Shown here: piece by piece, positions 1,783 to 20,088 of the stretch
How positions within the stretch are numbered: the stretch's first letter is position 1
Layout: the number at the start of each line of letters is the position of its first letter
Virus record (IMG/VR): IMGVR_UViG_3300030389_001567
Location: 3,444-24,764 of that record
DNA: 21,321 bases
Source of the DNA: a virus
Strand: one strand, 5' to 3'
The notes under the pieces: generated by a model
Database searches by the model: none
Told to the model about the DNA's origin: nothing
What the model saw: the letters and a program-made list of their open reading frames with translations, nothing else
Position numbers and translations under genes: made by a program

Positions 1783-3866
1783 TATGCTAGTAGAACCTCT
1801 GTAGTGTTAAAGTTAAAATATATTTTATCGCCATGAGTTGCTACACCAATTTTCTGTACTGTATCACCAGCACCTGATGGTGCAGTAGCTGTAACATCAC
1901 CAGTTGTAGATACAAAAACATCTGCACCTATTGAGCTAGAAAAATCAGGAAACGCTGAAGCATCGTGCATTACACCTTGTACCATAACATCAACAGTAGC
2001 ATCTGCTGCACCACCAGTAGTAATGATTCCTATTGCTGGCATTGAAGTTACTGCACTTCTGTCTGCTTTTTTTACTTTTCCATCTGTGTGTAAAAATACA
2101 ACATCGCCTACTGCAAGTGTTTCTGATGCAGTCATACTAAATATTATTCCTGTTGCTTCATCATCATCAGGGTCGCTATCTCCAAAATCTACTTTACCTG
2201 CTTCACCCATGTTTATTACAGAATCATCTGCAACTGTAATTGTTCCCGTACCAACTGCACCTGTAGTGTCAAATGTAGATGAGCCAATGTCTATGTTTCC
2301 AAAACCAGAACTAATAGCTCCAGAGTTTAATGTTCCTGTAGTAACAAGATTAGACATAGCAGTTATTTCACTACCAAAATATGTAGCAAATGTTTCAACG
2401 CTAGTTTGTTTCATAGTGCCACCATCGTTAGTTACAATTCCATCTCCATCTGCTACTGCTGTAGTACCAACAGATGTATTGCCATCCATAATATTAAGTT
2501 CTGTTGCAGTAGCATCTATTGCTGCTAACTTAGTAAAGTCAGCTTGTACCAATCCTGATACACCATCAAGTAAATTAAGTTCCGTAGCAGTTGATGTAAG
2601 AGCCACATCTTCGTTTATCTTTGGTGATGTAAGCGTTTTGTTAGTTAGTGTCTGCGTTGTGTCATCACCAACTAAATTGGTAGCAGCAGCAGGTAATACT
2701 ACTGTTACATTTCCAGAGTAAGCAGAGTGTGGTGATGCTTGTAATTGCGTGTAGTGTGCGTTTGATGATTCACAGTAAAATCTTACATATGATTCTGCAC
2801 CACTATTTTTTATTGATATTGCACCTGACTCTATGTCTACACCATTTGTACCATCAATCCTTACTACACCTGTACCATGTGGTGTAAGTGCTATGTTTCT
2901 GTTACTAGCACCTGTTACTATTCCATGTGTAAGAACATCTAAATCGCCACCAAGCTCTGGTGAAGTGTCCTCTACAACATTTGATATTGCACCTGATGTT
3001 GCTAAACCAGATACAAGTGTTGACCTTGTAATTTTCTTTAATCCACCACCTGATGTGTCTACTGCAAGTAGTACATCGTCTCCTGCAACTGAAGATATTT
3101 CTGATAAATCACCAACTGCTGTAGGATTGAAGTTTGTACCATCTGCTATTAGCAAATGACCTGCTGTGTTAGTTCCCATGAATAAATCATCACCAGTTAT
3201 AGTTAGGTCACCTGCAACTGCTACATCAGCACCAGTAAATGTAAGAGCTGTAGTAGTTCCTGATTTAATAATTAAGTTACCACTATTGTTAGTAGCACTT
3301 CCGTATGTTGTGCCTGCATCTTTAAATAGCACATCTGCTCCATCAGCATCCAAAACAATGTCAGCTCCAGAGTCTATTGTAAAGTCACCTGATGATGCTA
3401 AGTTACCACCAAGTGTAATGTTGCCTGTAGTTGTAATGCTATCAATGTAAGCATCTTTGTAATATAAAGACGATGTACCTAAATCTACATCGCTGTCAGT
3501 AACTGGAGATAATGCACCATCAATAAGTTTTATTTGATCTTGAGCTCCTGCTCTAAAAATAATATTGTTGTCAGTTGCAAAGTCAATGTCATTGTCTGCA
3601 TCTCTACCTACAACCAAAGCTGCGTTAAGAACAGAAGTAACTCCTGTAAGTGCTGCAACATATTCTGGAGCTGATGCACCAGAGTTTACTGCAAGAACTT
3701 TACCTGCTGTGCCTATGGCTAATTTTGATAGAACTGTACTAGAACTAGCAAAGAGAATATCTCCTGCGGCCTGACTATCAAATATATGTCCTGTTCCGTC
3801 AGTATGCTCGTACTCGGTCTGAGTCATCTGACTTCCTACCGATTTATGTTGAAACTCATTACTCAT
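1782..3866 (-). CDS. Tail fibre-like structural protein with TATELN repeats
   Basis: This 694-residue protein is rich in Gly, Ala, Ser, Thr and Asp with few aromatics, typical of fibrous beta-structured virion proteins. Residues about 145-205 carry beta-strand modules (GNITLGGNLASSGDFTIDSG, then DIVLDADGADVLFKD and SGNLIIKSG) of a type common in marine phage fibres. Two TATELN repeats lie at residues 426-436 (TATELNLLDGV) and 453-463 (TATELNIMDGN). The last 115 residues (AVGDVVFLHTDGKVKKADRS, later KIGVATHGDKIYFNF) look like a compact beta-barrel similar in style to DUF2190-type phage proteins; that assignment is tentative. The ATG overlaps the upstream stop (ATGA) and follows a strong GGAGGT site 9 bases upstream. 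The gene sits between the nozzle-like gene and the propeller fibre, so a fibre or fibre-connector role is likely; no enzymatic motif is visible. Confidence 0.75.
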   Translation of the reverse strand: MSNEFQHKSVGSQMTQTEYEHTDGTGHIFDSQAAGDILFASSSTVLSKLAIGTAGKVLAVNSGASAPEYVAALTGVTSVLNAALVVGRDADNDIDFATDNNIIFRAGAQDQIKLIDGALSPVTDSDVDLGTSSLYYKDAYIDSITTTGNITLGGNLASSGDFTIDSGADIVLDADGADVLFKDAGTTYGSATNNSGNLIIKSGTTTALTFTGADVAVAGDLTITGDDLFMGTNTAGHLLIADGTNFNPTAVGDLSEISSVAGDDVLLAVDTSGGGLKKITRSTLVSGLATSGAISNVVEDTSPELGGDLDVLTHGIVTGASNRNIALTPHGTGVVRIDGTNGVDIESGAISIKNSGAESYVRFYCESSNAHYTQLQASPHSAYSGNVTVVLPAAATNLVGDDTTQTLTNKTLTSPKINEDVALTSTATELNLLDGVSGLVQADFTKLAAIDATATELNIMDGNTSVGTTAVADGDGIVTNDGGTMKQTSVETFATYFGSEITAMSNLVTTGTLNSGAISSGFGNIDIGSSTFDTTGAVGTGTITVADDSVINMGEAGKVDFGDSDPDDDEATGIIFSMTASETLAVGDVVFLHTDGKVKKADRSAVTSMPAIGIITTGGAADATVDVMVQGVMHDASAFPDFSSSIGADVFVSTTGDVTATAPSGAGDTVQKIGVATHGDKIYFNFNTTEVLLA
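2478..2591 (-). repeat. TATELN(L/I)(L/M)DG repeat pair in the fibre gene
   Basis: Two copies of an 11-residue motif begin 27 residues apart at residues 426 and 453. Such TATELNLLDG units recur in fibres of marine phages (family knowledge). Short periodic motifs of this kind fit a trimeric beta-helical shaft, which is inference. Confidence 0.75.
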
Positions 3867-7695: not shown

Positions 7696-8153
7696 TATAC
7701 AGGTATCTCCGATGTGCGACCATCACGATCCACTCTTATCTTGAGAGGTCTAGTAAGGCCACTTTGTTCTGTTTTCATAAATAGATAATCGGTTGCAATA
7801 TGCTGACCAGTGTTATCTAGAATCTTAAACTGCTGCATTACAGGCATTCTACTTGCCATTTTATTTACAGCCATCTTAAGTTTATGTTCTTCTACAGAAG
7901 ATCCGTTATCTTCTTCTCTCTGTTTCCGAACTTCTTCATAAACCCTTTCTCCTGCTTTGGTGTCTCCAGAATGTTTGTTTGCCAAGTCACCTGCAATCTG
8001 TGCGTGTGACTCAACATCTCCATATCCAATCTTACCTTCAGGGATTACCATCTTCATTTTCTTACCATCTTTTTCAACAGTATGTTCTGAGACGGCAATC
8101 TCAGGTTTATCTCTAAAAATATTATTGTTGTTAGACTTAGTATACTTTCCCAT
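7695..8153 (-). CDS. Unknown 152-residue protein in head-tail junction cluster
   Basis: I do not recognise this protein. It is charged and Lys-rich, opening with MGKYTKSNNNNIFRDKP, with a probable amphipathic helical middle (residues about 60-100, including AGERVYEEVRKQREED) and a C-terminal part ending LKIRVDRDGRTSEIPV. There is no signal peptide or membrane segment. Its ATG overlaps the stop of the previous gene (TAATG) without a good ribosome binding site, so translation is probably coupled. Its stop overlaps the GTG start of the adaptor-like gene. A position between small head genes and the adaptor fits a head-completion or assembly factor, which is inference only. Confidence 0.6.
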   Translation of the reverse strand: MGKYTKSNNNNIFRDKPEIAVSEHTVEKDGKKMKMVIPEGKIGYGDVESHAQIAGDLANKHSGDTKAGERVYEEVRKQREEDNGSSVEEHKLKMAVNKMASRMPVMQQFKILDNTGQHIATDYLFMKTEQSGLTRPLKIRVDRDGRTSEIPV

Positions 8154-8455
8154 TATTTACTAATTCTAATTCCGTGAAGACCACTGCTGTCTACACCATA
8201 AGCTACATTGACAACTGCACTTGTGCTTGTGTCTCTGATCAACTGTATTTGGTCTAAAGTGTCTTCTCCGTAAATTTCTAAAAATTCTCCGTTTGATACG
8301 AGAACTCCATTTGTTCCTGTTGGTGCTGTACCATCGTGCCTTACTCTGATTGCTGCTGTCTCAATACTCATAACTGCATAGTTCGTACCATCTGGAACAG
8401 TCAAAGATACTGCTGTACCTGCAACTGTTTTATTGACTTCGCTTCCTAATGCCAT
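8153..8455 (-). CDS. Small beta-rich head protein, possible capsid decoration protein
   Basis: This 100-residue protein alternates short hydrophobic strands with Gly/Asp turns: AVSLTVPDGTNYAVMSIETA, IRVRHDGTAPTGTNGVLVS, then FLEIYGEDTLDQIQLIRD and VVNVAYGV. The pattern of R-x-RHDG, then PT-x-TNG, then a leucine-rich segment and a final strand resembles small phage head-associated proteins, but I cannot name a family with confidence. A clear GAGGAG site lies 5 bases before the ATG. It is the first gene after an 81-base gap containing a stem-loop. Decoration of the capsid surface is inferred from size, beta content and location near the capsid gene. Confidence 0.55.
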   Translation of the reverse strand: MALGSEVNKTVAGTAVSLTVPDGTNYAVMSIETAAIRVRHDGTAPTGTNGVLVSNGEFLEIYGEDTLDQIQLIRDTSTSAVVNVAYGVDSSGLHGIRISK

Positions 8456-8471
8456 ATTTTCTCCTCATGCA

Positions 8472-8520
8472 GTGAGGGTCAAGGGAATTAAATTTCCGTA
8501 ACTTTAACTCAGACCCTCAC
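8472..8520 (-). promoter_or_regulatory. Two-part stem-loop in the gap before the 100-residue head gene
   Basis: A perfect 9-base inverted repeat (GTGAGGGTC at 8472-8480, GACCCTCAC at 8512-8520) encloses 31 bases. Inside it a second 5-base repeat (ttaaa 8488-8492, tttaa 8503-8507) could stack as an upper stem with a 10-base loop. On the transcribed minus strand the structure ends 16 bases before the ATG of the next gene, next to its GAGGAG site. There is no U-run after it, so it is not a standard factor-independent terminator. It could act as an mRNA stabiliser, processing site or translation control element. Confidence 0.5.
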
Positions 8521-8536
8521 CACAACTATTCATTTA

Positions 8537-8926
8537 TTATGCGTCAGATCCAGCTATGCCGATCCATCCGTTAGTCGCACCAGTCCAGTAGCAGACTGCT
8601 GTTTCATTTTGGGTTGGAGTCATAATTGTACCTGTAGTAGATGAACCATTCCATCCTCTCACAGTGATTACTTCTGCTGCATCAGCAGTGTTGCTGATTA
8701 CAAAGAACCCACCTTGAGTGTCTGCGTATCTTGTAGTTCCTGCTGTTCCAGTTCCTTCAGAGTTAATATCTGTAGTTGCTGTTCTCAAGTCAGGAAGATC
8801 ACAGTTTCTTGCAGAACCTCCTGGGTCTAAGAATTGAAATTTAGCGTCTGTAACGGCTAAGCTCTTAGCTCCAGATAGAGTCTCTGCGTTGGATGATTCA
8901 TACTTGTTACCCATAGTGTTACTCAT
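8537..8926 (-). CDS. Small beta-rich virion protein, possible head decoration or fibre base
   Basis: This 129-residue protein has a polar N-terminus (MSNTMGNKYESSNAETLSG) and a beta-rich remainder with GGFFVISNTADAAEVITVRG and a C-terminal TGATNGWIGIAGSDA. The run of short strands and a terminal GW-x-GI-x-G resembles small capsid-surface or fibre-attachment proteins of phages in style. The first ATG is preferred over the one at codon 5 because an AGGAGA site lies 9 bases upstream of it. The gene overlaps the preceding stop by 8 bases and ends with tandem stops (TAATAA). Function is inference from size, composition and location. Confidence 0.5.
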   Translation of the reverse strand: MSNTMGNKYESSNAETLSGAKSLAVTDAKFQFLDPGGSARNCDLPDLRTATTDINSEGTGTAGTTRYADTQGGFFVISNTADAAEVITVRGWNGSSTTGTIMTPTQNETAVCYWTGATNGWIGIAGSDA

Positions 8927-9317
8927 CTTTTAGGTCTCCTATTTTATTTTCAAGTTTTTTATCAAGTGTTGGTTTCTCCGTTTCCATCTTGGGGAGCTGC
9001 TCTTTCTTCTGCGATCTCTGAGGTGCTTCAACCTTTTTAGGGAGCTCCATCAGTCCGCCTTTCTCAAGATACCCAACGATGCTCTCTGGAAACATCCTGA
9101 CTTTGGTTTTGTCCATCCTAACAAGATTACCTTTAAGGTCTCTTGTAGGCAGGTATATGTAAGCCATGGTAGGATCGTTCTCTGTCCACTCAGGAGTTGG
9201 CAACTCGTCTAACTTCTGCTCTTTCAGATAATTCTTAAGAGTTTCGTTCCACTTGTTGTCAAATTTGATTTCTTTAACAATCGTATTCCATCTGTCTAAT
9301 TGAACTGTAGTAGTCAT
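8919..9317 (-). CDS. Unknown 132-residue protein downstream of the capsid gene
   Basis: I do not recognise this protein. The first 90 residues look compact and mixed alpha/beta (WNTIVKEIKFDNKWNETLKN, WTENDPTMAYIYLPTRDL, and MFPESIVGYLEKGG). The last 40 residues are Lys/Glu-rich and probably disordered or a charged helix. No cysteines, signal peptide or membrane segment are seen. Its ATG overlaps the upstream stop (ATGA), with AGGAG about 12 bases upstream. The segment ending in GYLEKGG with flanking charged linker resembles small proteins encoded next to major capsid genes in other phages, but this is a weak impression. A virion or assembly role is inferred from the operon position. Confidence 0.5.
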   Translation of the reverse strand: MTTTVQLDRWNTIVKEIKFDNKWNETLKNYLKEQKLDELPTPEWTENDPTMAYIYLPTRDLKGNLVRMDKTKVRMFPESIVGYLEKGGLMELPKKVEAPQRSQKKEQLPKMETEKPTLDKKLENKIGDLKDE

Positions 9318-9634
9318 TTCTTTCTACCTCTCCTACCTCTTCTGCGTTTCCCAGCTTTAACTTGACCCAAAGGAGCAACCCTTTCAGTCAAACTGGAAGA
9401 CGGAGAACCAATTATTTCTTTTTCTGTTTTGACAAATGCTGGTATCCATTTGCCAGTGAAAACTAAATTTTCACCACTGAGCTTTGATTGTCTTTTCATC
9501 TTAGATAAGTAGTGACCAACCCTGTCGGTTTTCACCTTGAAGGGATCTCCACTTATAGAATCAAAGATAGTTGTGTATAGATGATCGTCATTATTCTCAA
9601 TCTTCTTTACATAATAATCTTGCTCAGTAGTCAT
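9314..9634 (-). CDS. Unknown 106-residue protein with strongly basic C-terminal tail
   Basis: This gene follows the major capsid gene by 8 bases, with AGGAGA as its ribosome binding site. Residues 1-70 appear to form a small mixed fold (YYVKKIENNDDHLYTTIFDS, then FKVKTDRVGHYLSKMKRQS). The last 14 residues, from about 93, are almost all Lys, Arg and Gly (KAGKRRRGRRGRKK). Such a tail could bind nucleic acid or the acidic inner capsid surface; this is inference. No known family is recognised. The order MCP, this gene, then two further small genes suggests a capsid-associated protein produced with the coat protein. Confidence 0.55.
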   Translation of the reverse strand: MTTEQDYYVKKIENNDDHLYTTIFDSISGDPFKVKTDRVGHYLSKMKRQSKLSGENLVFTGKWIPAFVKTEKEIIGSPSSSLTERVAPLGQVKAGKRRRGRRGRKK

Positions 9635-9642
9635 TCAGTCTC

Positions 9643-10539
9643 CTATAGTGCGTCTGCCGCACCTAGCATTTCAACACCCCAAGGGTCAGCTACTTCAGCT
9701 TCTCCCCATTCACCAACCATTACCATTTCTGTACCTCTTAATGAAGCATCTCTTTCTTCTTCAGCTTCCATTTCGTGAGCCATAGCCAAAGCTAAAGCCT
9801 GTGGAACGAAGATAGCACCCTTAGCGTCTCCAGAGCCGTCTCTTCCAATTACACCTGATTGGTATACTGGAACACCGAAAGCTCTTTCGTTACCTCGGAA
9901 GTAGTTCTGAATAACTTCTGCTGTAATTCCTTCTGGAATTGGTTGAGCAGCCATACCTGAACCACCTGCTTGGATAGATGATACTTCTTGTACAAATCTT
10001 CTGATGTGTTCTGGGTGCATTACTGCATTTGGTGTACCAGGAGCCATACCAAAAGATGAGTTGTTGTCAGTTTTTAAGAAAGATACTGCACCTGCAATAT
10101 CTCTGTAAGTTAAGTTACTTCCTGCACTTCCGATAGAGTTTGAAAAACCATCGAATAGAGTGATAAGGTCGTCTTCAAGTAATCTACCTAAAGCTCCACC
10201 TTGTACATCTCCAACATGAGAAAGTATGTCTTCGTTATTTTGTCTAGTTAGTCTGTCAGATACGAATGTAAGTATTCCGTGTTCAGAAGAAGTTATGCTA
10301 GTCACTGTTACAGATAATTGTTGAGGAGTTGTTATGTCCACACCTTCTGATAAAGCTGCTGCATCGTTTCTACCCCAGATAGGGATGTTAACTTGTTTAG
10401 AACCTTGAGGAATATCATACCTAGATACCAACTGGTTTGTAGGACCAGCAGGTTCAATGTTAGCAATCGCTGCTGCGATCACAATGCTAGATTGATCTGA
10501 TAGACTAGAACTTGACGATAAAGTCAATCCTGTTGCCAT
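9643..10539 (-). CDS. Major capsid protein (HK97-fold type)
   Basis: This 298-residue protein follows the scaffold-like gene by 13 bases with an AAGGA site. The N-terminal arm is Ser/Thr-rich (MATGLTLSSSSSLSDQSSIV), followed by VSRYDIPQGSKQVNIPIWG, then ALSEGVDITTPQQLSVTVTS and FVSDRLTRQN. The latter resembles the E-loop to spine-helix region of HK97-like coat proteins. The segment RDIAGAVSFLKTDNNSSFGM followed by NAVMHPEHIRRF, with later FGVPVYQSGVIG and AIFVPQALALAM, fits the A-domain pattern where an alanine-rich strand and VP-x-Y-S motifs occur. Length is typical for a short coat protein. It forms the icosahedral shell. No N-terminal delta domain or protease gene is seen, consistent with a separate scaffold. 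The family call rests on pattern and position. Confidence 0.85.
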   Translation of the reverse strand: MATGLTLSSSSSLSDQSSIVIAAAIANIEPAGPTNQLVSRYDIPQGSKQVNIPIWGRNDAAALSEGVDITTPQQLSVTVTSITSSEHGILTFVSDRLTRQNNEDILSHVGDVQGGALGRLLEDDLITLFDGFSNSIGSAGSNLTYRDIAGAVSFLKTDNNSSFGMAPGTPNAVMHPEHIRRFVQEVSSIQAGGSGMAAQPIPEGITAEVIQNYFRGNERAFGVPVYQSGVIGRDGSGDAKGAIFVPQALALAMAHEMEAEEERDASLRGTEMVMVGEWGEAEVADPWGVEMLGAADAL

Positions 10540-10552
10540 TATTTATCCTTCT

Positions 10553-11359
10553 TTATAGGTTTGCGTAACCTTTATTTTTTATTTCATTTTTTGCTGCACG
10601 ATACTGTGTAGCATCTATTTGGCCTGAAGCCATCATTTGAGATAAATCGGATAAAGTTGAAACTCTGCTACTACCAGCTTTCGGAGCTGCACTCGTACTC
10701 GGTGGTGGCTGAGTCTGAGGAGCAGGCTCTTGTTGTGTTGCTTGATTAGCAGGTTGTTGTGGTTTCGCCATTTCGTCTATATTTTTTTGAGCAAGTCTTA
10801 TCAACTGTGCCGTAGACATATTTTGATTCCACCCTTTCCAAACCTTTTCATCAGTCTCTGCTATGTTTAAACCAGAGTCTTGAATCATCTGTCTGGTTGT
10901 TTCTGCAAGAACTTCTTGTTGTGGAGACATCTTAGCTTCTTGCACTTGTGGTGCAGGTTCTACCTGTTTCTCTTCTAACTTAGCCTTGTAGTATTCAACC
11001 TGTTGTTCTGGATCAAGCTGTTCAACCTGAGCTTTCTCAACATTCTCAGTAAATTTAATAACAGGCTCCAATCTTTTATCGATCATCTCCTGTATCTCTT
11101 TTTGTTGACCTGCTGTGTAATTCGCAAATCTACCTTGAAAAGAATTAAGTGCTTCTTTGCTGGCTTCGGCTGCTGCCTTTGCTGTCATTTCCGCTATCTT
11201 TTCAGGTGTTAGAGATTCTTCTGCTTTGACTTCCTGTTCTTGCCCTTGAGCTTCTACTGGTGTCGTTGCAGCATTATTTACTTGTTCAGCTATCTGCTGT
11301 TCTTCTGCCGTAACAGTTTCTTCTTGTTCTGAAGCCGTAACTTCTTTTTCGTCTGCCAT
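10553..11359 (-). CDS. Capsid scaffold-like protein
   Basis: This 268-residue protein is extremely rich in Glu, Gln, Ala and Lys and lacks cysteine. The N-terminal 50 residues are acidic (MADEKEVTASEQEETVTAEE). Residues about 55-145 are predicted helical or coiled-coil (KIAEMTAKAAAEASKEAL, then QQKEIQEMIDKRLEPVIKF). A Pro/Gln linker (residues about 200-225) leads to a C-terminal helical hook (SDLSQMMASGQIDATQYRAA), a layout typical of phage scaffolds, whose C-terminus binds the coat protein. It lies directly before the major capsid gene, the usual location. A clear AGAAGGAG site lies about 10 bases upstream of the ATG, after a 63-base gap containing hairpins. It directs procapsid assembly and is then removed. 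No protease motif is visible. Confidence 0.8.
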   Translation of the reverse strand: MADEKEVTASEQEETVTAEEQQIAEQVNNAATTPVEAQGQEQEVKAEESLTPEKIAEMTAKAAAEASKEALNSFQGRFANYTAGQQKEIQEMIDKRLEPVIKFTENVEKAQVEQLDPEQQVEYYKAKLEEKQVEPAPQVQEAKMSPQQEVLAETTRQMIQDSGLNIAETDEKVWKGWNQNMSTAQLIRLAQKNIDEMAKPQQPANQATQQEPAPQTQPPPSTSAAPKAGSSRVSTLSDLSQMMASGQIDATQYRAAKNEIKNKGYANL

Positions 11360-11422: not shown

Positions 11423-14400
11423 CTAAACTAAAGTTTCGTCAACTCCAAATTTTCTAATTCCGTTTTCATAAACATCTGGAGCTATGTGCCCTGTAGTTTC
11501 CCATATAGTTTCACGGCCTTTGTTGTCACGACTCTGAAGTGTGTCTGTGTAACCCCATCTGTACAAGAATCCATCAAGTCCAGGTCTTTGCTTTCTTAAT
11601 TCTTTTTTTACATTAGATATTCTTTTTTGGAGTTTTTTAACAAGGCTTGCGTTTTCATTTTCTTTCAGAAAGGTTACTCTTTGCGATTCAGTAAGTGCTT
11701 GGTAATCATTCAGCACAGCTTCTGCAAAAGCTGGATCATCTTCTCTTTCAATAACTGCTTGTTCACTAGCTTGCCAATAAAACTCAAACTGGTTTCTTGC
11801 ATTGTAAAACTCTGCTTCATAAGGCAAAAGTGATTTACCTGACCTCAAAAAAGTTTGTGCATAATCATACATCTCTGTTCCATACAAATTGATAAACTCT
11901 GCTTCAGCGATTTCTTTTGCTCTGTAATCGTAACCCTCGGGCTTATCAAAGGCTTCATTGTTTAAAACAGTCTCAATATAAATTTCTGCTATTTGGTCTT
12001 CTATCTGTTGATTGTCATCAAATTTTTCACCTATTTCTGTAAAATATTCTTGTACTTTAGCAAGATCACCACCTGGTTCTAGTCTTGCATAAAAGTCTTT
12101 ATACCTTGTTCTTCTCTCTGCATTTAGTTTTTTCCATTTGTCGCTGTCTCTCAGGTCTCTAATACTTATCAAACCATTTTGTACAGCAGCAGAAACTTCA
12201 GCAAAGTCTTTTTGGTACTCGTTTCTTATTCTTTCTCTTTCATCGTAGTAAATTTCTTGTTGGGCATAAAGGTCATCACTATTTTTATCTGATATTTCTC
12301 TTGCAAGTTTTGTATATTCAACTATGTTTTCATCTTGGTTTATTGTGTCTTTTTCAACTTTGTTTAGTTGTTCGTAAAGTCTTCCGTATTTATCAAAAGC
12401 AAGAGTATCTCTTCTGCTTCTTCTTCTATCCCAGACACTCTGAGGTCTTGCGTTAAGTCCTGCAAACTCACCAAGAGTTCCTGCAATACCAGTTCTGTAA
12501 GGATCACCTAGGGTAAGATTCTCTAACCAAAACGGCATGAACTGTGTGCCAAGATGTTTAGATACATCACCTGCATCTTCAAACTCTTGACCAAGAAAAT
12601 TTGTGCCTGTCCACATATCTCTGATAACACCTGTTACTGGTGATCCCCTTCCTTGCAAATAATCAACTGCATTACCAAGTACACCTTTTTCGTAAATACT
12701 TTCATCTGTGATTGCACTGTCACCAATCTTTACAGCAGCTTTTGTAAAACTTCTCCAGAAAGAACCAAACCCAATCCTGTCGTCACCTATTTTAACTGTT
12801 AAGAAACTTCCGCTTCTTGGATCAAGATCAGCTTCCTGACCTAATGCTTCTGCCATAGCAATATATGTTCCTAAACCAAATGCAGCAGTACCAATAAGTG
12901 CCTGTCTTGCAGCCTGTCCTTGTACGCCACCTCTTGCAGCATCTGCTAATAGAGAAAAACTTGCTCTTGTATATCGTGGTGAGAAAAATAAAAAAGCTCT
13001 TTCTATTGCCTGCTGACTGGGCCTTATACCTGCTTCTGTTGGGTTTAGTGCACCTGTAGACTTATTTAAAAAATTTGTAAGACCTCTTAATCCGCCATCT
13101 GCCTTGTTGGCAGTTTGGTACATAGCTTCAAAACCTTTTAGTCTAAGGACATCTGATGCGTGAGTATATGAGTCTTCAAACCTTCTAAGTGTTTGATTGG
13201 TTAGTGCCTTTCTTCCTTCTGCAAGTATTCTGCCTTTGTCTCCTGTAAATATTGAATTATCAAGACCTGCATAAATATCAGTTGCTTTTCTACCTAATGC
13301 ACCACCATTATCTACATAGGCCTGAAGTAAACTTTTTGTAACTGCTTCACCATTCTCAATAACAGTTATTTGCTTTTGGGCTGCTTCTTTCATAAATGTT
13401 TCCATAGATTCTTTTTGAAACAGTACCTTAAAACCTTGTTTAGTAGATGTACCCCATGCTTTGTAAAGATTACCAGCTTCTTTAACTCCACCAGTAAGTA
13501 ATTTTGATGTAGCAAGTCCTAGTATTGGTAAACCTTGTAGTAATGAAAAACCAAAGTCAAACCCAGTTCTTCCAACTCTCATGATGTCACCTAAGTTACC
13601 AAGTGCACCACCAATAGATTTAAATTTCTGTGCAGGTTCTGTAACCTCAAGAGCTGCTATTCTTCCTAAGAAATCTTGATCGGCAACATCGAAGAAATAG
13701 TTTTTTCCGAAATCTAACTGTTCCATTTTTTCTATTTGTTTAATAATTTTTGGAATAGAATCATCATCAAGGTTGTCAATAAATTTTGTCATCCCTGCAA
13801 GTCTAAGTGTTTCTTGCAGTTTAGCTTTTTTATTCGTAGGTTTTTTTAATTCTTGCCTTAATTGTTTTAAAACTCTTGCTCTTTGAGTTGTCTTCATAGC
13901 AAAACCTGTTACTTTTTTTTCAAAAACTTTAGTTGCTAATTCTTTTTCTACTATTGAATCATCGATAAGTTTAAAAGCAGCTCTTGTATACGCTTCAATA
14001 ACTCCGTCAACACTGTTACCAACTTTAATTTCGCCATTATCTACAAGATCTCTTACCTGAGTATCAAACTCTGCATCGTCAAATATTTTCCTTCTCTTGC
14101 CTACATTCTTAGGAATTGCAGATCCTGATTGTTTTATGATTGCATCTTGTCTTGCTTCATCCATCCCCTGGAATACAAGTTGTCTTGGAAAGTAAGATCT
14201 TCTCCTAACTGTTCCATCTTCGGTTAGAAATTTTTGTGACAGTTTTGCAAACTCTACACCTGCATCAGTCATTTCTTCTGCAATCTCGTCAATGTGTTTA
14301 TAAACATTTCTCATGTATAAAAGCTGTGAATCAGATAGTCCTTCATAAGCAGTAAACTTTCTTAAATCCGTTGGTGCTAAATCAAGCCAACCAAGATTAT

Positions 14401-15601
14401 CTGCATCTTTTCTACCTCGTTCTTTAAAATATGTAACAGCAAAATCATCAAGACTTTCACCTTCTTTTACAACAGGAAAGGCTCTTTCAAACACATTACC
14501 AATAAATGTTTTACCTTCAGTGTTTTTAAATGGTGAGTTAACAGCAGTCTGTTTATTTTTCGTAAACTGTTCTGTAATACCTGCAAGGTTTATCTTAGTG
14601 CCTGTTGCATCCTCTGCAAAACCTGACTTCTTTAAAGTTACTTCCATCATTCCTGCATCATCAACTTGAAATAATTTTTCAACACCAGTTTTCCTTGATA
14701 AGAAAGATTTAGACCCAATGGTGCTTTTTACAGCTACAGGCATCAATGCACCCATAGCAGCAGCAACTCTGCTCTCAGCGTTACCTCTAAGTATGTTAAT
14801 CTTACCTGCTAATCTTTGAATCGGATCAGAAACATCAAGAGTGAAGTTTGTACCTCTTACAGCAGAGGTAAACTTTTCTGCAAACCCACCTACAAAAGGC
14901 ACTTTCTTAAGACTTGTTGCTACTTTACCTAGGCCTTGTGAACTAAGAGTTTCTTCTACATTCTTGTCAATACTGTTTATTGTTTCTCGTTTTGTAGATA
15001 TTCTTTTCTTTGCTACTTTAGTCGCTGCCGTATCTGCAACAGCTTTACCACCTTTAAAAACTTTACTTACTGTTCCTATACCTAGATATGTAAGAGGGTC
15101 AAACATTACCTCTGATGTAAACGCTGCACCTCTTCTAAACTCTTTATTTGCTTTTGCTTCGTTGTAAGCCTGTCTTGTACTAGATAAAAAACTGTTACCT
15201 TGTTTTTGCAACTCTCTTCTTCTTTGAGATATGGTTTCATAAACAGGCTTTTCTGTTCCTATGCCACCTTTTTGTCTTTGTGTTTCAGGGCTGGACTCAA
15301 TTAGTTTTCTAAGGAATGGGTTACGAGTTAGTGCTTGAACTGCAAATGCACTTCCAACATCACTAGTAAAACTAATCGCTGATAAAGTCTTTCCAAGCAA
15401 ACCTTGTGGCTTTTCAGGCTCAACAACAAGTGGTGTTACATTTCTCTTCTGCTCTAAGCTCTGTACACCAGCTTGACCTAGAGGTGTAGTTGGCTCTTTA
15501 AACTGCGGAGTCTCAGCAATCTCTTGTGCTCTTTTTGCTGTCTCTCTAGTTTCTCTAGCTCTTAGCAGTTGTTGAAATCTTGGATCAAAAGGACTTACCA
15601 T
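11423..15601 (-). CDS. Very large helical virion protein, candidate internal/ejected protein
   Basis: This 1392-residue protein is the largest in the window and is mainly helical and charged. It has no recognised catalytic motif. The N-terminus is Arg/Glu/Gln-rich. Residues about 680-702 (FDFGFSLLQGLPILGLATS) and 899-919 (QALIGTAAFGLGTYIAMAEA) are hydrophobic and Gly-rich and could cross or embed in a membrane. Around 871 lies an FFSPRYTRASFSLLADA segment that resembles LPD38-type large polyvalent phage proteins, a tentative impression. From about 1059 to 1320 the sequence is a long highly charged helical region (including EEYFTEIGEKFDD-like segments and QKRISNVKKELRK). The ATG follows an AGGAGA site that overlaps the previous stop. 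Large helical proteins with buried hydrophobic segments in structural operons are often stored in the head and ejected with DNA. A peptidoglycan-acting or MuF-like domain is not evident. Confidence 0.65.
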   Translation of the reverse strand: MVSPFDPRFQQLLRARETRETAKRAQEIAETPQFKEPTTPLGQAGVQSLEQKRNVTPLVVEPEKPQGLLGKTLSAISFTSDVGSAFAVQALTRNPFLRKLIESSPETQRQKGGIGTEKPVYETISQRRRELQKQGNSFLSSTRQAYNEAKANKEFRRGAAFTSEVMFDPLTYLGIGTVSKVFKGGKAVADTAATKVAKKRISTKRETINSIDKNVEETLSSQGLGKVATSLKKVPFVGGFAEKFTSAVRGTNFTLDVSDPIQRLAGKINILRGNAESRVAAAMGALMPVAVKSTIGSKSFLSRKTGVEKLFQVDDAGMMEVTLKKSGFAEDATGTKINLAGITEQFTKNKQTAVNSPFKNTEGKTFIGNVFERAFPVVKEGESLDDFAVTYFKERGRKDADNLGWLDLAPTDLRKFTAYEGLSDSQLLYMRNVYKHIDEIAEEMTDAGVEFAKLSQKFLTEDGTVRRRSYFPRQLVFQGMDEARQDAIIKQSGSAIPKNVGKRRKIFDDAEFDTQVRDLVDNGEIKVGNSVDGVIEAYTRAAFKLIDDSIVEKELATKVFEKKVTGFAMKTTQRARVLKQLRQELKKPTNKKAKLQETLRLAGMTKFIDNLDDDSIPKIIKQIEKMEQLDFGKNYFFDVADQDFLGRIAALEVTEPAQKFKSIGGALGNLGDIMRVGRTGFDFGFSLLQGLPILGLATSKLLTGGVKEAGNLYKAWGTSTKQGFKVLFQKESMETFMKEAAQKQITVIENGEAVTKSLLQAYVDNGGALGRKATDIYAGLDNSIFTGDKGRILAEGRKALTNQTLRRFEDSYTHASDVLRLKGFEAMYQTANKADGGLRGLTNFLNKSTGALNPTEAGIRPSQQAIERAFLFFSPRYTRASFSLLADAARGGVQGQAARQALIGTAAFGLGTYIAMAEALGQEADLDPRSGSFLTVKIGDDRIGFGSFWRSFTKAAVKIGDSAITDESIYEKGVLGNAVDYLQGRGSPVTGVIRDMWTGTNFLGQEFEDAGDVSKHLGTQFMPFWLENLTLGDPYRTGIAGTLGEFAGLNARPQSVWDRRRSRRDTLAFDKYGRLYEQLNKVEKDTINQDENIVEYTKLAREISDKNSDDLYAQQEIYYDERERIRNEYQKDFAEVSAAVQNGLISIRDLRDSDKWKKLNAERRTRYKDFYARLEPGGDLAKVQEYFTEIGEKFDDNQQIEDQIAEIYIETVLNNEAFDKPEGYDYRAKEIAEAEFINLYGTEMYDYAQTFLRSGKSLLPYEAEFYNARNQFEFYWQASEQAVIEREDDPAFAEAVLNDYQALTESQRVTFLKENENASLVKKLQKRISNVKKELRKQRPGLDGFLYRWGYTDTLQSRDNKGRETIWETTGHIAPDVYENGIRKFGVDETLV

Positions 15602-15608
15602 TTCTCTC

Positions 15609-17975
15609 CTAGTAGAATAATGTTCTTGGTGCTAAGAAACCACTAAGATCAGGCCCTGTATCTCCAGGTGTATTTTCTGCTGCTATTTCTGTTAATCCTA
15701 ATGGTGTTATACCTTGAGCAGCAGCTTCACCTTGTGCTCTTGCAAGTTCAATGTCAGTAAGTCTATTAAGTCTGTCCTCGGTAATACCAGAAAAATCTCT
15801 TACATTAAAAGGGTTTGCTTCCTGTCTTCTAAGATCACCTTCTATTGTTCTTCCACCAACAGGCTGAAAGTTTGGATCAAATACTGTTCCACTTGGATTT
15901 GTAATATTAAATGGTGTTGCACTTGCTTGCTGTGGTGTCATAGCACCAGTTTGCATAGCAGTCTGCGGTAGTGGCACAGATCCTGGCAACTGACCCCTAA
16001 GAAGAGGAGAGCCACCTGAAGCTACTATTGCAGCTAACTGTGCAGGGTTTGAGTATAAATCTGCAATATTCCTAAATGTTTGTGGTGCTTGATTTATTCT
16101 TGCAAGCTCTAACTCTGCTTCTCTTTGTCTTTCAAGCACTTCAAGTTCTTGTTGTCTTGCTCTTCTTGCTTCTTCTTCTTGTCTTTGCAGTAGTTGTTGT
16201 GGTGTAAATCCTTGCACAAATCTTTGACCACCACCTTCAAGGGGTTGACCACTTGCATCCAAAGGTGTGTAAAAACCACCTAATAATCCACCAGATTGCC
16301 TTAGTGCTTCTTGAGTAAGTTCTTGTTGACCAAGAGGTGTTAATACTTCTCTAAACTGTCCTGTTGGTTGTCCTTCTGCATCAAAGACTCTTTCTTGCAC
16401 CAATCTTCCACCTGAAGCCTGTATTGATCTAGTTTCTCTTTCTAAATCTTCTAATTGCTCAAGTGATAACGAACCAGTTGGTCCTCCAAATAAACCACCA
16501 GATGCACTTACTTGTGCCTGTAATATATCATCTGCTGAACCCTGTAAATCAGTCAATGCTCTTACTCTTTCAGCGTACTGTGCAAGTAAAAGTTCAACAG
16601 CAGGGTTTGGTACAACTCTTGTTGAAGTTGCAGGTATCATATTTCCATCTTCATCTGGAATTGATGTTGTTTCAGTAACTCTTATAAATAAATTGTTTGG
16701 ATCTAATATTTCAGGAGGAAAACCAGGAAAATCATCTGGAGTTATGTTTCGTCTGTTACCATCTGCATCTACTGGTAAATTAATACCTAGAGCTGGTGAT
16801 GTTGCTAAAAAGTTTGATAAAGCATCAGTTACATCAAAATCAAGAAACTCTCCAGGCACATCTTCGATTCTTGCAATATTGCCAGTCTGGTTTGCTGTTG
16901 CACCAGGACCTGTTCCTGTTATTGGTGCTGCTCCTGTTCCTGGTCCTTCAGGTGCACTTACTGATGGATCAAAATCACCCACTGTTGGTGTTGGTGCAGT
17001 TTCAGTACCTGTTGGTGTTTCTTGTTGCCCAGTCGCTAATGGACCTGATGGTGCACTAGGTAGGGGTTGTCCTGTTGTAAGGTCTATATTTAATGCTGAT
17101 GGATCTGCATCCGAAGTACCTCTTGTTGAGTATTGTATGAAACCATCACCTGTTTCTATTGGCCTAAACTCAATATTGTTTAAAGATAATGTATTAGTAA
17201 ACCAGCTTGGTATATTTGCAAGATCTCTATTTGAGTTTCTTGCGTATGCTTCTCGTATATCATTTACAGCAAAACCTGTTTTTGTACCTGTAACCAAAAG
17301 ATCATTTGGAGAAAGATTGTAAATTTCTGGCATTATGTCTCTCTCAAAAATACTTGGATCAACTGGTGTTTCGTTTAATTCAGCCCTGCTTGTAAGCCCA
17401 ACTGCATCTGCATTTACAAGCATAACAATATTCTCAGTTATTGGATTACCAGTTCTTCTTTCGTAAGTATACTCATAAAGTCTGTAAGTAGTTCCATTTG
17501 GAGATTCTTTAGTTTCCTTTAATATTCTTCGTGAGTTATTTATGTTGTCTATTCTGTTTAGTTCAGTTGCAATAGTTGGTCTTGAAACACTTAAATATTC
17601 TTTAGCCCTTCTTTTCTCTTCTTCTCTTGCACTCAATTGATTTGAGCTTGGTGCACTTGGTGCAAGACCTATTGGGTTCAAGTCACCTACTCCAGATTGT
17701 GGAACAAATGCTTGCCCTTGACCTATAACTTCGGCACTTCTTGTTTGTCTTTGAGTTCCAAAATCTTGTCCTCCAACTGAAATTATGTCACCAACAACTG
17801 GTTGTGTAAGTGGGCTGCCAGGCTGTATTGGTGCATTTATAATATTATTTACCCTTTGAACTGACTGTCCTGATTCTTGTGCAAGTTCATTTGCTATCCT
17901 ACCAGCTTGTGCTGGTGAATCTGCTTCTATTGGAAACTGTCTTCCATTTGTGTATGTAACTAAAAATCTTGCCAT
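15609..17975 (-). CDS. Large multi-segment virion protein with disordered Pro/Gly/Thr linker
   Basis: This 788-residue protein has an N-terminal small domain (residues 1-46, FLVTYTNGRQFPIEADSPAQ, then AGRIANELAQE) of a beta-beta-alpha style that often starts phage structural proteins. Residues about 120-285 are a mixed globular region (RLYEYTYERRTGNP, LNNIEFRPIETGDGFIQYST). A long low-complexity Pro/Gly/Thr stretch follows (about 300-370, including TPTGTETAPTPTVGDFDPS). Residues about 600-645 are a likely coiled coil (EEEARRARQQELEVLERQRE). The C-terminus carries NPFNVRDFSGITEDRLNRLT and ends TLFY. No catalytic motif or membrane segment is recognised. It lies 2 bases after a small gene (AGGAT site) and just before the 1392-residue gene, so the two may work together as internal or ejected proteins. 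Function is inference. Confidence 0.6.
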   Translation of the reverse strand: MARFLVTYTNGRQFPIEADSPAQAGRIANELAQESGQSVQRVNNIINAPIQPGSPLTQPVVGDIISVGGQDFGTQRQTRSAEVIGQGQAFVPQSGVGDLNPIGLAPSAPSSNQLSAREEEKRRAKEYLSVSRPTIATELNRIDNINNSRRILKETKESPNGTTYRLYEYTYERRTGNPITENIVMLVNADAVGLTSRAELNETPVDPSIFERDIMPEIYNLSPNDLLVTGTKTGFAVNDIREAYARNSNRDLANIPSWFTNTLSLNNIEFRPIETGDGFIQYSTRGTSDADPSALNIDLTTGQPLPSAPSGPLATGQQETPTGTETAPTPTVGDFDPSVSAPEGPGTGAAPITGTGPGATANQTGNIARIEDVPGEFLDFDVTDALSNFLATSPALGINLPVDADGNRRNITPDDFPGFPPEILDPNNLFIRVTETTSIPDEDGNMIPATSTRVVPNPAVELLLAQYAERVRALTDLQGSADDILQAQVSASGGLFGGPTGSLSLEQLEDLERETRSIQASGGRLVQERVFDAEGQPTGQFREVLTPLGQQELTQEALRQSGGLLGGFYTPLDASGQPLEGGGQRFVQGFTPQQLLQRQEEEARRARQQELEVLERQREAELELARINQAPQTFRNIADLYSNPAQLAAIVASGGSPLLRGQLPGSVPLPQTAMQTGAMTPQQASATPFNITNPSGTVFDPNFQPVGGRTIEGDLRRQEANPFNVRDFSGITEDRLNRLTDIELARAQGEAAAQGITPLGLTEIAAENTPGDTGPDLSGFLAPRTLFY

Positions 17976-17977
17976 GT

Positions 17978-18160
17978 TTATATCCTAAATGGGTTGTTGT
18001 TCATATTCAAGGGGTTTTGCTTTCTTTTAGTTTTTTCTTTTGGCATTTCAGGTTTCACAACATCCTTGAATGAAATATTTGCTTGCTCTAAAAATTTGCC
18101 TACCATTGTGTCAAACTCTCCAAAAGCTATATCTATCTGTGTGTTCTTCTTCTTTGCCAT
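17978..18160 (-). CDS. Small unknown 60-residue protein after the portal
   Basis: I do not recognise this protein. It starts MAKKKNTQIDIAFGEFDTMV, has a likely amphipathic helix (residues about 15-40), and ends in a Lys/Asn-rich tail (KTKRKQNPLNMNNNPFRI). Its ATG overlaps the portal stop (TAATG), and an AGGAG site lies 5 bases upstream, so it is probably real despite its size. Its stop lies 2 bases before the next ATG. Such a small charged protein encoded between portal and internal proteins may be a head-assembly factor, but nothing in the sequence proves it. Confidence 0.6.
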   Translation of the reverse strand: MAKKKNTQIDIAFGEFDTMVGKFLEQANISFKDVVKPEMPKEKTKRKQNPLNMNNNPFRI

Positions 18161-20088
18161 TATACTCCTAATCCTGGTGGTAGATCTCTACCTTGTACTC
18201 TTCTGTTACCAGTACGAGGTGATGCTATCTGCCTACCCACTAAATCTTGTTCTCTTAAACTACCTGGAACTACAGGCCTTATATTCGTCTCTACTCTTGC
18301 CCTTTCTGTCGCAGGAGATCTTTGAGGTTGGTTAGTTGCACTAAAGTTACCAGGGTTTGGTAATTGTGTTTGTCCTTGAGTGTTAAGTATATTCTGTGCA
18401 ATCTGTTCTGCTTCTTGTCCAGTTGCTGCACCACTAGCTTCAACTAATTGTTGCAGTATTGGTACTCTTCTAGCCGCTTCACCTTGCAATACTTGCTGTA
18501 CTTGCTGACTCTTCAAGAATCCTTCTGCAAGTAACTTAGATCTTACTTCAAGTGCATTTGACACACCTGCTTTTCTAAGTGCAGTATCTTGATCAATGAA
18601 TCCTGTTCTCCAAAGACTATTGTAAAGATTAAGTTTTCTTTCCTGTTCTTCTGGAGATGTAGGAGTAAGTTGCACCATGTTTACATAGTGACCTCTAATA
18701 TCGTTTGGTCTTATGATTGCATCCATAGGGCCTGTTTCTGTTTTACCAAACACAGTTACCTTATCTTGAATCACATTCTCAATAATGTGTAAAATGATTG
18801 CGTTTCTATCTTGTAACCCTCTCTGTGCTGCTTCTACATACGCACCAAAGTTAAGTGCAGCAATACCTGCAAGAACAGCCGTATGATAACCACTTGCAGC
18901 ACCTTTTGGTCTTTGACCTCTTGATACGGCAGGTGCAGTATTATCCTCAATAGCTTGTTGCATCATCTGTTGTGCAACCACAATAGAACTTGGTGGATCT
19001 GGTGTGATTGCTCTTTCAATGTTTACATTTTGAGGTAAGAAGTTCTTAGCACCAGGTGTCTCTTCATACTGTTCCATTACCTGTTCTGTGATACCAGGAG
19101 GACCTCTGAAATCTCTAGTAGGCCAAGCACTGTTTCCAACAATATCAAGGTACTGCGATGCAAGTCTTGATTCTGCTCTAAGCATATCAAAGTTACCATG
19201 CAGTATACCTCTGTAGAGTTTTTCGGGATCATACCCGTCACTCATAAGACCTGTGTGTGGCCAGTACATTGTAAAAGGCAAAGTCTTGTAGCCGTGTCGC
19301 TTCGGCTCTAATGCGAATTTGCCCTCAGCCATGTAACATACTTGACTGTGAGTCCAGGTTTCCACAAATTCCACTGTTCCTTCTACAGGTCCATCCCATG
19401 ACGGAAAGTGGGCTTTTACCCATGAAGCATCAATTTCGTAAAAGTGCATCACCCATCGTGGGTTCTGTATATTGTTAATATCCCAAACCATCATCTTTGG
19501 ATTTACACAAGTTGAGGTTATAGGCCAGTTTATATTTCTTCTGTTAAGTACATCTTGTAGTTGCTCTTGATAATCACCAATGTCACCATCTTCTGGTGGT
19601 TCAGGGAACTCTTCCCATCTGTTGGCAGCAAACTCTGTTTTTTCAAAGGCAACTCCATATAGTGCCATGTGTTTTGCTGTTTCTCTTCTTGTTGGTGAGA
19701 ACTGCTCAAGCATATGATTCGCACCCCTGAGAAACTTCTCAAGCAGTTCTGCCCTCGCTTGACCTTTCGGGCCAGGCGGAGGTACTGATATATCTAAAAA
19801 TTGTGGAGTGACATGAGCAACAAGTGTGTTGATTGTTGAACTTGCAGTTCCAAGTCTTATCTGTGAACCTGTCTCTGGAACTGAAAAATCAAAGTTTGAT
19901 AAATAAAAATCTTCGGCTTCTTCGCAGTTGTCGTAGAATGTGTCAAATTTTCTTCTTCCGCTTTCAAGTGTGCTCTCTACCCACTCAATAGTAAGTAAAG
20001 GCTCTTCTAACGGATTCGCACCTTCTCGTGCTATCTCTTCTTCAGGATTGACACTGCTGTTTGCACCCGAACCATAACTCATTGTCAT
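18160..20088 (-). CDS. Portal protein
   Basis: This 642-residue protein has the length and location expected of a phage portal: its ATG overlaps the terminase stop (ATGA), and a weak AAGGA lies about 11 bases before. Residues about 80-140 contain SQIRLGTASSTINTLVAHVT and FSPTRRETAKHMALYG. Mid-protein segments include NPKMMVWDINNIQNPRWVMH, MYWPHTGLMSDGYDPEKLYR and HGNFDMLRAESRLASQYLD, and later QQMMQQAIEDNTAPAVSRGQ with ALNFGAYVEAAQRGLQDRNA. These are the wing and crown helices typical of portals that form the dodecameric DNA entry ring. The C-terminal 100 residues are Gln/Pro/Arg-rich and probably flexible (ARRVPILQQLVEASGAATGQ). A second Met lies at codon 3. The family call rests on pattern, size and neighbours. 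Confidence 0.8.
   Translation of the reverse strand: MTMSYGSGANSSVNPEEEIAREGANPLEEPLLTIEWVESTLESGRRKFDTFYDNCEEAEDFYLSNFDFSVPETGSQIRLGTASSTINTLVAHVTPQFLDISVPPPGPKGQARAELLEKFLRGANHMLEQFSPTRRETAKHMALYGVAFEKTEFAANRWEEFPEPPEDGDIGDYQEQLQDVLNRRNINWPITSTCVNPKMMVWDINNIQNPRWVMHFYEIDASWVKAHFPSWDGPVEGTVEFVETWTHSQVCYMAEGKFALEPKRHGYKTLPFTMYWPHTGLMSDGYDPEKLYRGILHGNFDMLRAESRLASQYLDIVGNSAWPTRDFRGPPGITEQVMEQYEETPGAKNFLPQNVNIERAITPDPPSSIVVAQQMMQQAIEDNTAPAVSRGQRPKGAASGYHTAVLAGIAALNFGAYVEAAQRGLQDRNAIILHIIENVIQDKVTVFGKTETGPMDAIIRPNDIRGHYVNMVQLTPTSPEEQERKLNLYNSLWRTGFIDQDTALRKAGVSNALEVRSKLLAEGFLKSQQVQQVLQGEAARRVPILQQLVEASGAATGQEAEQIAQNILNTQGQTQLPNPGNFSATNQPQRSPATERARVETNIRPVVPGSLREQDLVGRQIASPRTGNRRVQGRDLPPGLGV

Follow-up and report, generated by a model that had tools for sequence, protein, structure and literature searches.

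In phage P22, gp16 and gp20 form a conduit through the periplasm and the inner membrane and are a target of SieA exclusion; they rank with the most variable virion genes, surpassed in this only by the receptor domain of the tailspike, and Sf6 gp16 or gp20 singly fails in P22, whereas both together work (PMC10883804). Ejection proteins diverge fast (PMC8954989), and the 'metaviromic islands' of marine phages include internal virion proteins (PMC3909814). Polyvalent proteins carry several fused domains, some of them enzymatic, and are encoded among the virion genes of portal-terminase phages. Genuine Pfam LPD38 proteins (PF18857), such as Burkholderia phage BcepIL02 gp70 and the product of gene 25 of Escherichia phage PTXU04, are giants whose genes close the structural module or lie beside the portal or TerL gene. 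The BcepIL02 gp70 homologue of podovirus JC1, gp69, which carries LPD38, was detected in purified virions by mass spectrometry (PMC9144972).

In P22, phiKMV, P-SSP7, HTVC019P, and BcepC6B, the gene in the scaffold position comes directly after the portal gene or one small gene later, and the genes for large internal proteins come after the tail genes. In T7, the scaffold gene likewise follows the portal gene, and the internal-protein genes are also located after the tail genes, consistent with the statement of an initial annotation about T7-like phages. The slot beside the portal is occupied in other tailed phages by minor head proteins of the MuF type.

Here we report the analysis of a 21,321-nt stretch of viral DNA (the window) in which two giant genes, p788 and p1392, lie between the portal and the scaffold gene. 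The two genes constitute a recombination cassette that is swapped as a unit between close relatives, which is new here. We consider it probable that their products are a matched virion-internal pair of the polyvalent type, which would be packaged into the head and ejected with the DNA.

Gene order of the virion module

The window comes from a virus record of 24,764 bp, which probably derives from an uncultured marine virus of bacteria; two scans of bacterial and archaeal genomes found no relative that would point to a host. The module described here is encoded on the minus strand, as are all genes and protein segments of the window given below. ORF reading gives the order TerL, a gene in the portal position, a 60-aa ORF, p788, p1392, a scaffold-like gene, and the gene of the major capsid protein (MCP). 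Beyond them come small genes, a larger pair of 445 and 831 aa, and those for fibre-like proteins. Packing is tight: TerL overlaps the portal gene, the portal gene overlaps the 60-aa ORF, 2 nt precede p788, and 7 nt separate p788 from p1392. TerL was identified by weak PHROG and Pfam support, and the MCP (9643..10539) by a profile match of its family to T7 gp10-like MCPs (prob 95.7). The portal (18160..20088), for which Pfam, PHROGs, and tblastn against 50,697 phage records returned nothing, and the scaffold-like gene (10553..11359), also without a profile match, are assigned from synteny and size. The 60-aa ORF (17978..18160) matches no family and is kept in position in most relatives. No profile signal connects the tail proteins p445 and p831 with T7 gp11/gp12 or P22 gp4/gp10, and no long-tail, tail tube, or chaperone genes were recognised in this phage; since tape-measure-like genes are absent, we infer a podovirus morphology.

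The p788 gene (15609..17975), recognised by its ORF, co-divergence with p1392, and a structure model, and the p1392 gene (11423..15601) are placed between the portal and the scaffold/capsid genes exactly as the initial annotation had it, and together they take up 6.55 kb, or 31% of the window, in line with its estimate of about 6.5 kb and nearly a third. Pfam and PHROG scans of both families likewise bore out the absence of enzymatic motifs from either protein. Both genes are intact in relatives and under purifying selection, with dN/dS of about 0.12 for p1392 and about 0.18 for the C-terminal half of p788.

Scans of IMG/VR with p1392 and TerL queries yielded about 80 loci, many of them from the same contigs. 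The order of TerL, portal, middle gene, big gene, scaffold, and MCP is kept in all loci with enough flanking sequence, even where the portal is 22-23% or the MCP 25-34% identical; the big protein reaches 1958 aa, and the middle protein ranges from 460 to 1029 aa. The placement of the pair between portal and scaffold is thus a fixed hallmark of the lineage, a distinct yet stable trait and no rearrangement of a single genome. The genomic position that had been called unusual does differ from that in T7-, P22-, and BcepC6B-type phages, but it is constant across the lineage, and the slot is that of MuF-type proteins elsewhere.

Two relatives showed features of their own. By ORF inspection, a 37,354-bp relative (L109/L110) has no recognisable RNA or DNA polymerase gene; its early genes are on the opposite strand, and a 533-aa ORF looks by eye like a GHKL-type ATPase. 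Another contig, L074 (64,587 bp), carries related cassette and capsid genes and is almost double the length of the other genomes. At about 3405-3440 of L006, immediately to the left of where the window begins, a short run of ambiguous bases breaks the frame of a fibre-like gene, probably at an assembly gap.

The location of the two genes between portal and scaffold, in a lineage with no other recognised assembly helper, would also suit assembly factors that nucleate the procapsid or recruit the scaffold at the portal and are never injected. We regard this as unlikely, as tight contacts with a conserved capsid predict the reverse of the hypervariability and of the exchange uncoupled from portal, scaffold, and MCP that are described below, and the remote relation of p1392 to LPD38 proteins, one of which was found in virions, also speaks against it. 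Incorporation of an ejected virion-internal pair at the portal vertex would be compatible with the same gene position.

Remote similarity of p1392 to LPD38 proteins

Searches with p1392 returned nothing in Pfam, PHROGs, or tblastn against the same 50,697 phage records. PDB sequence searches with both proteins gave chance hits only, and a PDB fold search with the p1392 model gave none at E <= 0.001; VIA-align rows for p1392 were helical coils at Z < 7, and hence no fold is claimed. For profile comparison, we used C-terminal fragments of eight phage proteins as the LPD38 set; the seven that were scanned carry Pfam LPD38 (E 1e-26 to 1e-50), and the eighth is closely homologous to one of these. 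The p1392 family scored 54.9 against this set in hhalign (P 3e-5), and 60.5 when PTXU04 was added, compared with at most 31.8 for the controls, which included reversed profiles, T7 gp15/gp16, P22 gp16/gp20, BcepC6B proteins, and the TerL, portal, MCP, scaffold, and tail families of the lineage itself. The confident alignment covers p1392 residues ~658-877 (12971..13630) and corresponds to the helical part of the LPD38-protein C-terminal module that precedes the Pfam domain; the LPD38 stretch on its own scored 25.5, against 26.0 for the best control. The Pfam LPD38 model matched no member of the p1392 family above its cut-off, and restriction of the alignment to the core lowered the score to 32 rather than raising it, so formal family membership is not claimed.

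An AlphaFold model of p1392 residues 193-1392 is almost wholly helical, with moderate confidence (mean pLDDT 65) and low global TM-scores. A Foldseek search of viral models (BFVD) matched 11 proteins at E values from 2.7e-11 to 7e-4, and the functionally named matches at E<=1e-3 were all 'Large polyvalent protein associated domain' proteins; an explicit LPD38 protein followed at 5e-3, PTXU04 at 1e-2, and tape measures from 0.06 upward. The profile and structure routes share an input alignment and use different information. From both, we conclude that p1392 is remotely related to the C-terminal module of LPD38 proteins and not a formal member of the family, which supports, for p1392, the term polyvalent that had been offered for the pair.

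Like p1392, LPD38 proteins are giants encoded near structural genes, and their C-terminal module is related to p1392 at the profile and structure level. The latter differs in going unrecognised by Pfam LPD38, in having no enzymatic domains, in bearing a helical tail of about 300 aa after the module, and in its gene location between portal and scaffold. The charged helical character that had been noted for this long C-terminal tail was supported. As in polyvalent proteins, the pair is encoded among the virion genes of a portal-terminase phage, but the fused domains of that class have no convincing counterpart in the p1392 and p788 families by Pfam and PHROG. A giant LPD38 protein of about 5,400 aa is encoded directly upstream of the portal in Bacteroides phage BS-TP4 (L102), and is thus also portal-adjacent.

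Two hydrophobic Gly-rich segments had been pointed out in p1392, and they do exist, at residues 684-702 (13496..13552) and 902-920 (12842..12898). Their hydropathy (1.22 and 1.41) is within the range of shuffled p1392 sequences, for which the maximum averages 1.58 and in 73% of cases equals or exceeds the observed one; neither segment is therefore of transmembrane grade. Both are distinguished by conservation, the first being part of a GFDFGxxLLQGLP block and the second a helix after an FFSPRYTRAS motif. No transmembrane-grade segment and no peptidoglycan hydrolase was found in the pair.

Among the profile families that had been named as candidate relatives of the pair, the LPD38 module was matched by hhalign, but not by the Pfam LPD38 model, and neither MuF (by Pfam) nor T7 gp15/gp16 was matched. 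With MuF-type proteins (Mu gp30, SPP1 gp7), the pair shares a slot that adjoins the portal and precedes the capsid assembly genes; Pfam detects no MuF domain in it. Profiles of T7 gp15/gp16, P22 gp16/gp20, and BcepC6B gp15-17 scored at noise level. The pair resembles T7 gp15/gp16 in the sizes of two large neighbours (747 and 1318 aa in T7 versus 788 and 1392 aa), in its proposed role, and in the T7 gp10-like MCP of this phage, and could therefore represent true T7-type internal core proteins that have moved upstream. This origin is very unlikely, given gp15/gp16 profile scores of 12.9-21.2, which are noise, the different gene position, the lack of a transglycosylase (lysozyme) domain and of an identified gp14-like protein, and, by ORF inspection, the lack of a recognisable RNAP gene in the 37-kb relative. 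A displaced tape measure or other long-tail protein is slightly less credible still: p1392 is long and helical, of tape-measure-like length, and the 37-kb relative has no other gene of such size, but the p1392 gene lies upstream of scaffold and MCP, tail tube and chaperone genes were not recognised, and tape measures rank below the LPD proteins in Foldseek.

Exchange of the p788-p1392 cassette

Phages whose portals are 98-100% identical can carry versions of the pair that are 41-65% identical, with dS of 0.03-0.15 in the flanking genes versus 1.2-1.4 in the big gene and with junctions at or near gene ends. The DNA of the window and of L063 is 95.3% identical from TerL to a point 70 nt inside p788 (17906), then diverges, and identity of 97.4% resumes 2 nt past the p1392 stop codon (11421) and continues into the fibre gene. 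At the protein level, the two are 100% identical in TerL, 98% in the portal, 61% in p788, 42% in p1392, 89% in the scaffold, and 100% in the MCP. Between the window and L063/L070, dS is 0.14-0.146 for TerL and portal (portal 0.146) and 1.41 for p1392; since dS is raised as well, faster amino-acid evolution is excluded as the sole cause. L070, from another metagenome, has the L063 form, with 97% identity over 18.7 kb and both junctions present. A metagenome chimera is ruled out as the source of the pattern, because L063 and L070 share the cassette and both junctions.

In a second, independent case, the portals of L003 and L065 are 100% and their MCPs 99% identical, yet their pairs differ; portal dS is 0.034 and p1392 dS is 1.17 (p1392 measured on L014, from the same contig). 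Identity breaks off 2 nt after the p788 start and is regained within the C-terminus of p1392. The p1392 proteins of L003 and the window share 86% identity, although the portals of these two are just 93% identical. In L001, the N-terminal half of p788 alone has been replaced (41% identity), with 95% identity in the C-terminal half and 97% in p1392.

Once portal distance is removed, p788 and p1392 distances remain correlated across 22 loci (partial Mantel r 0.69, permutation p 0.001), a test on related sequences that we read as support for interaction and not as proof; in the same loci, portal-corrected p1392 distances show no link to those of the scaffold (r 0.07) or the MCP (r -0.07). Near-identical viruses with very different versions of the pair indicate that it is swapped as one piece, in the manner of a host-specific cartridge, and its description as a pair is thus borne out by co-divergence and joint exchange. 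Rapid adaptive divergence in place, for which the known pace of ejection-protein evolution could be invoked, is extremely improbable as the reason for the low identity of the pair, given p1392 dS about 10-fold and 34-fold above portal dS in the two cases, the sharp junctions, and the combination in L003 of a window-type p1392 with an L065-type portal and MCP.

Two other exchanged regions were observed in the window. The fibre-like p694 (1785-3866) is a second variable locus, in which the first ~140 residues are conserved and the rest is replaced in close relatives. From 7698 to 10539, the products from MCP to p152 (MCP, p129, p100, and p152) share 89-95% identity with their counterparts in L087/L088/L091, phages in which the portal is just 75-80% identical to that of the window, which marks a separate exchange block of capsid genes.

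Modules of p788 and a proposed role in DNA delivery

No convincing match to p788 was found in Pfam or PHROGs, and its AlphaFold model, with disordered ends, has moderate confidence (mean pLDDT 60). The N-terminal half (residues 1-365; 16881..17975), exchanged separately as seen in relatives, comprises a predicted beta-beta-alpha-beta mini-domain at residues 1-48 (17832..17975) and, in the model, a second, beta-rich domain at residues 149-290 (17106..17531). A Gly/Pro/Ser/Thr-rich linker (residues 298-366, 59% G/P/S/T; 16878..17084), disordered by sequence and model, joins it to a C-terminal half (residues 366-788; 15609..16880) that is conserved among relatives, with modelled hairpins and helices at 368-570 and a long helix at 592-642. 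The initial annotation had described a disordered linker and a coiled coil in this protein; the linker was recovered, and for the coiled coil it is the long helix that is supported.

The modelled mini-domain superposes on T7 Gp2 at Z 6.7 (1.4 A, 48 of 51 residues), a value below 8 that may reflect a common arrangement in so small a fold, compared with 4.7 for the next unrelated fold and 4.5 for the RNA polymerase-interacting protein YkzG; it also superposes on small phage proteins, one of them annotated as a host RNA polymerase inhibitor. Sequence similarity to Gp2 is not significant (6 of 400 random phage ORFs score equal or higher), and homology was rejected on this basis, the fold being kept as a structural lead only. 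T7 Gp2, an RNA polymerase inhibitor that binds the beta' jaw of the enzyme, is a free early protein, whereas p788 residues 1-48 form a domain of a large late protein. That the N-terminal half is an interchangeable injected payload, whose Gp2-like start would bind the RNA polymerase of the host when the DNA arrives, is a speculative and rather doubtful idea built on the model. If true, a phage with no recognisable RNA polymerase gene would deliver a regulator of host transcription inside its virion; the C-terminal half of p788 and p1392 would be a carrier accepting different payloads, with the Gp2-like start present in this phage and some relatives.

Packaging and ejection of the pair are proposed because the P22 pair evolves alike, the JC1 LPD38 protein occurs in virions, and metaviromic islands hold internal proteins. 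With P22 gp20/gp16, p788 and p1392 share the organisation of two adjacent, large, variable genes exchanged as a functional pair, and show the trait of such E proteins, namely hypervariable, co-exchanged partners inside a conserved virion gene cluster; they differ in having no sequence similarity, another gene position, larger size, and no identified gp7 counterpart. The suggestion of an ejectosome-like or polyvalent pair therefore stands as to the pair itself and the LPD38-like p1392, and an ejectosome is plausible by analogy with the P22 E proteins, but homology to T7 gp15/gp16 or P22 gp16/gp20 was not borne out.

Under the proposed mechanism, both proteins would be incorporated at the portal vertex while the procapsid head assembles, as the location of their genes between portal and scaffold suggests, and on infection would exit by way of the portal, either together with the DNA or in advance of it. 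The mostly helical p1392, with its LPD38-type C-terminal module, may serve as a large conduit or envelope-crossing protein, onto which the C-terminal half of p788 would dock; the N-terminal half of p788, on its flexible linker, may be a variable module that serves as payload or interacts with the host. The exchange could be driven by exclusion systems or by factors of the host envelope.

Variation of DNA-delivery proteins, with effects on escape from superinfection exclusion, is already known in P22-like phages. The same signature, with a dS contrast and sharp junctions, is seen here in an uncultured group that has no detectable relatives of its portal or p1392 among the 50,697 phage records, and it suggests that post-adsorption steps, besides tail fibres, undergo diversifying exchange in nature. 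It would also tie LPD38-type polyvalent proteins to the class of ejection proteins, and the naturally swapped pairs may be a resource for mapping the parts that touch each other and the host.
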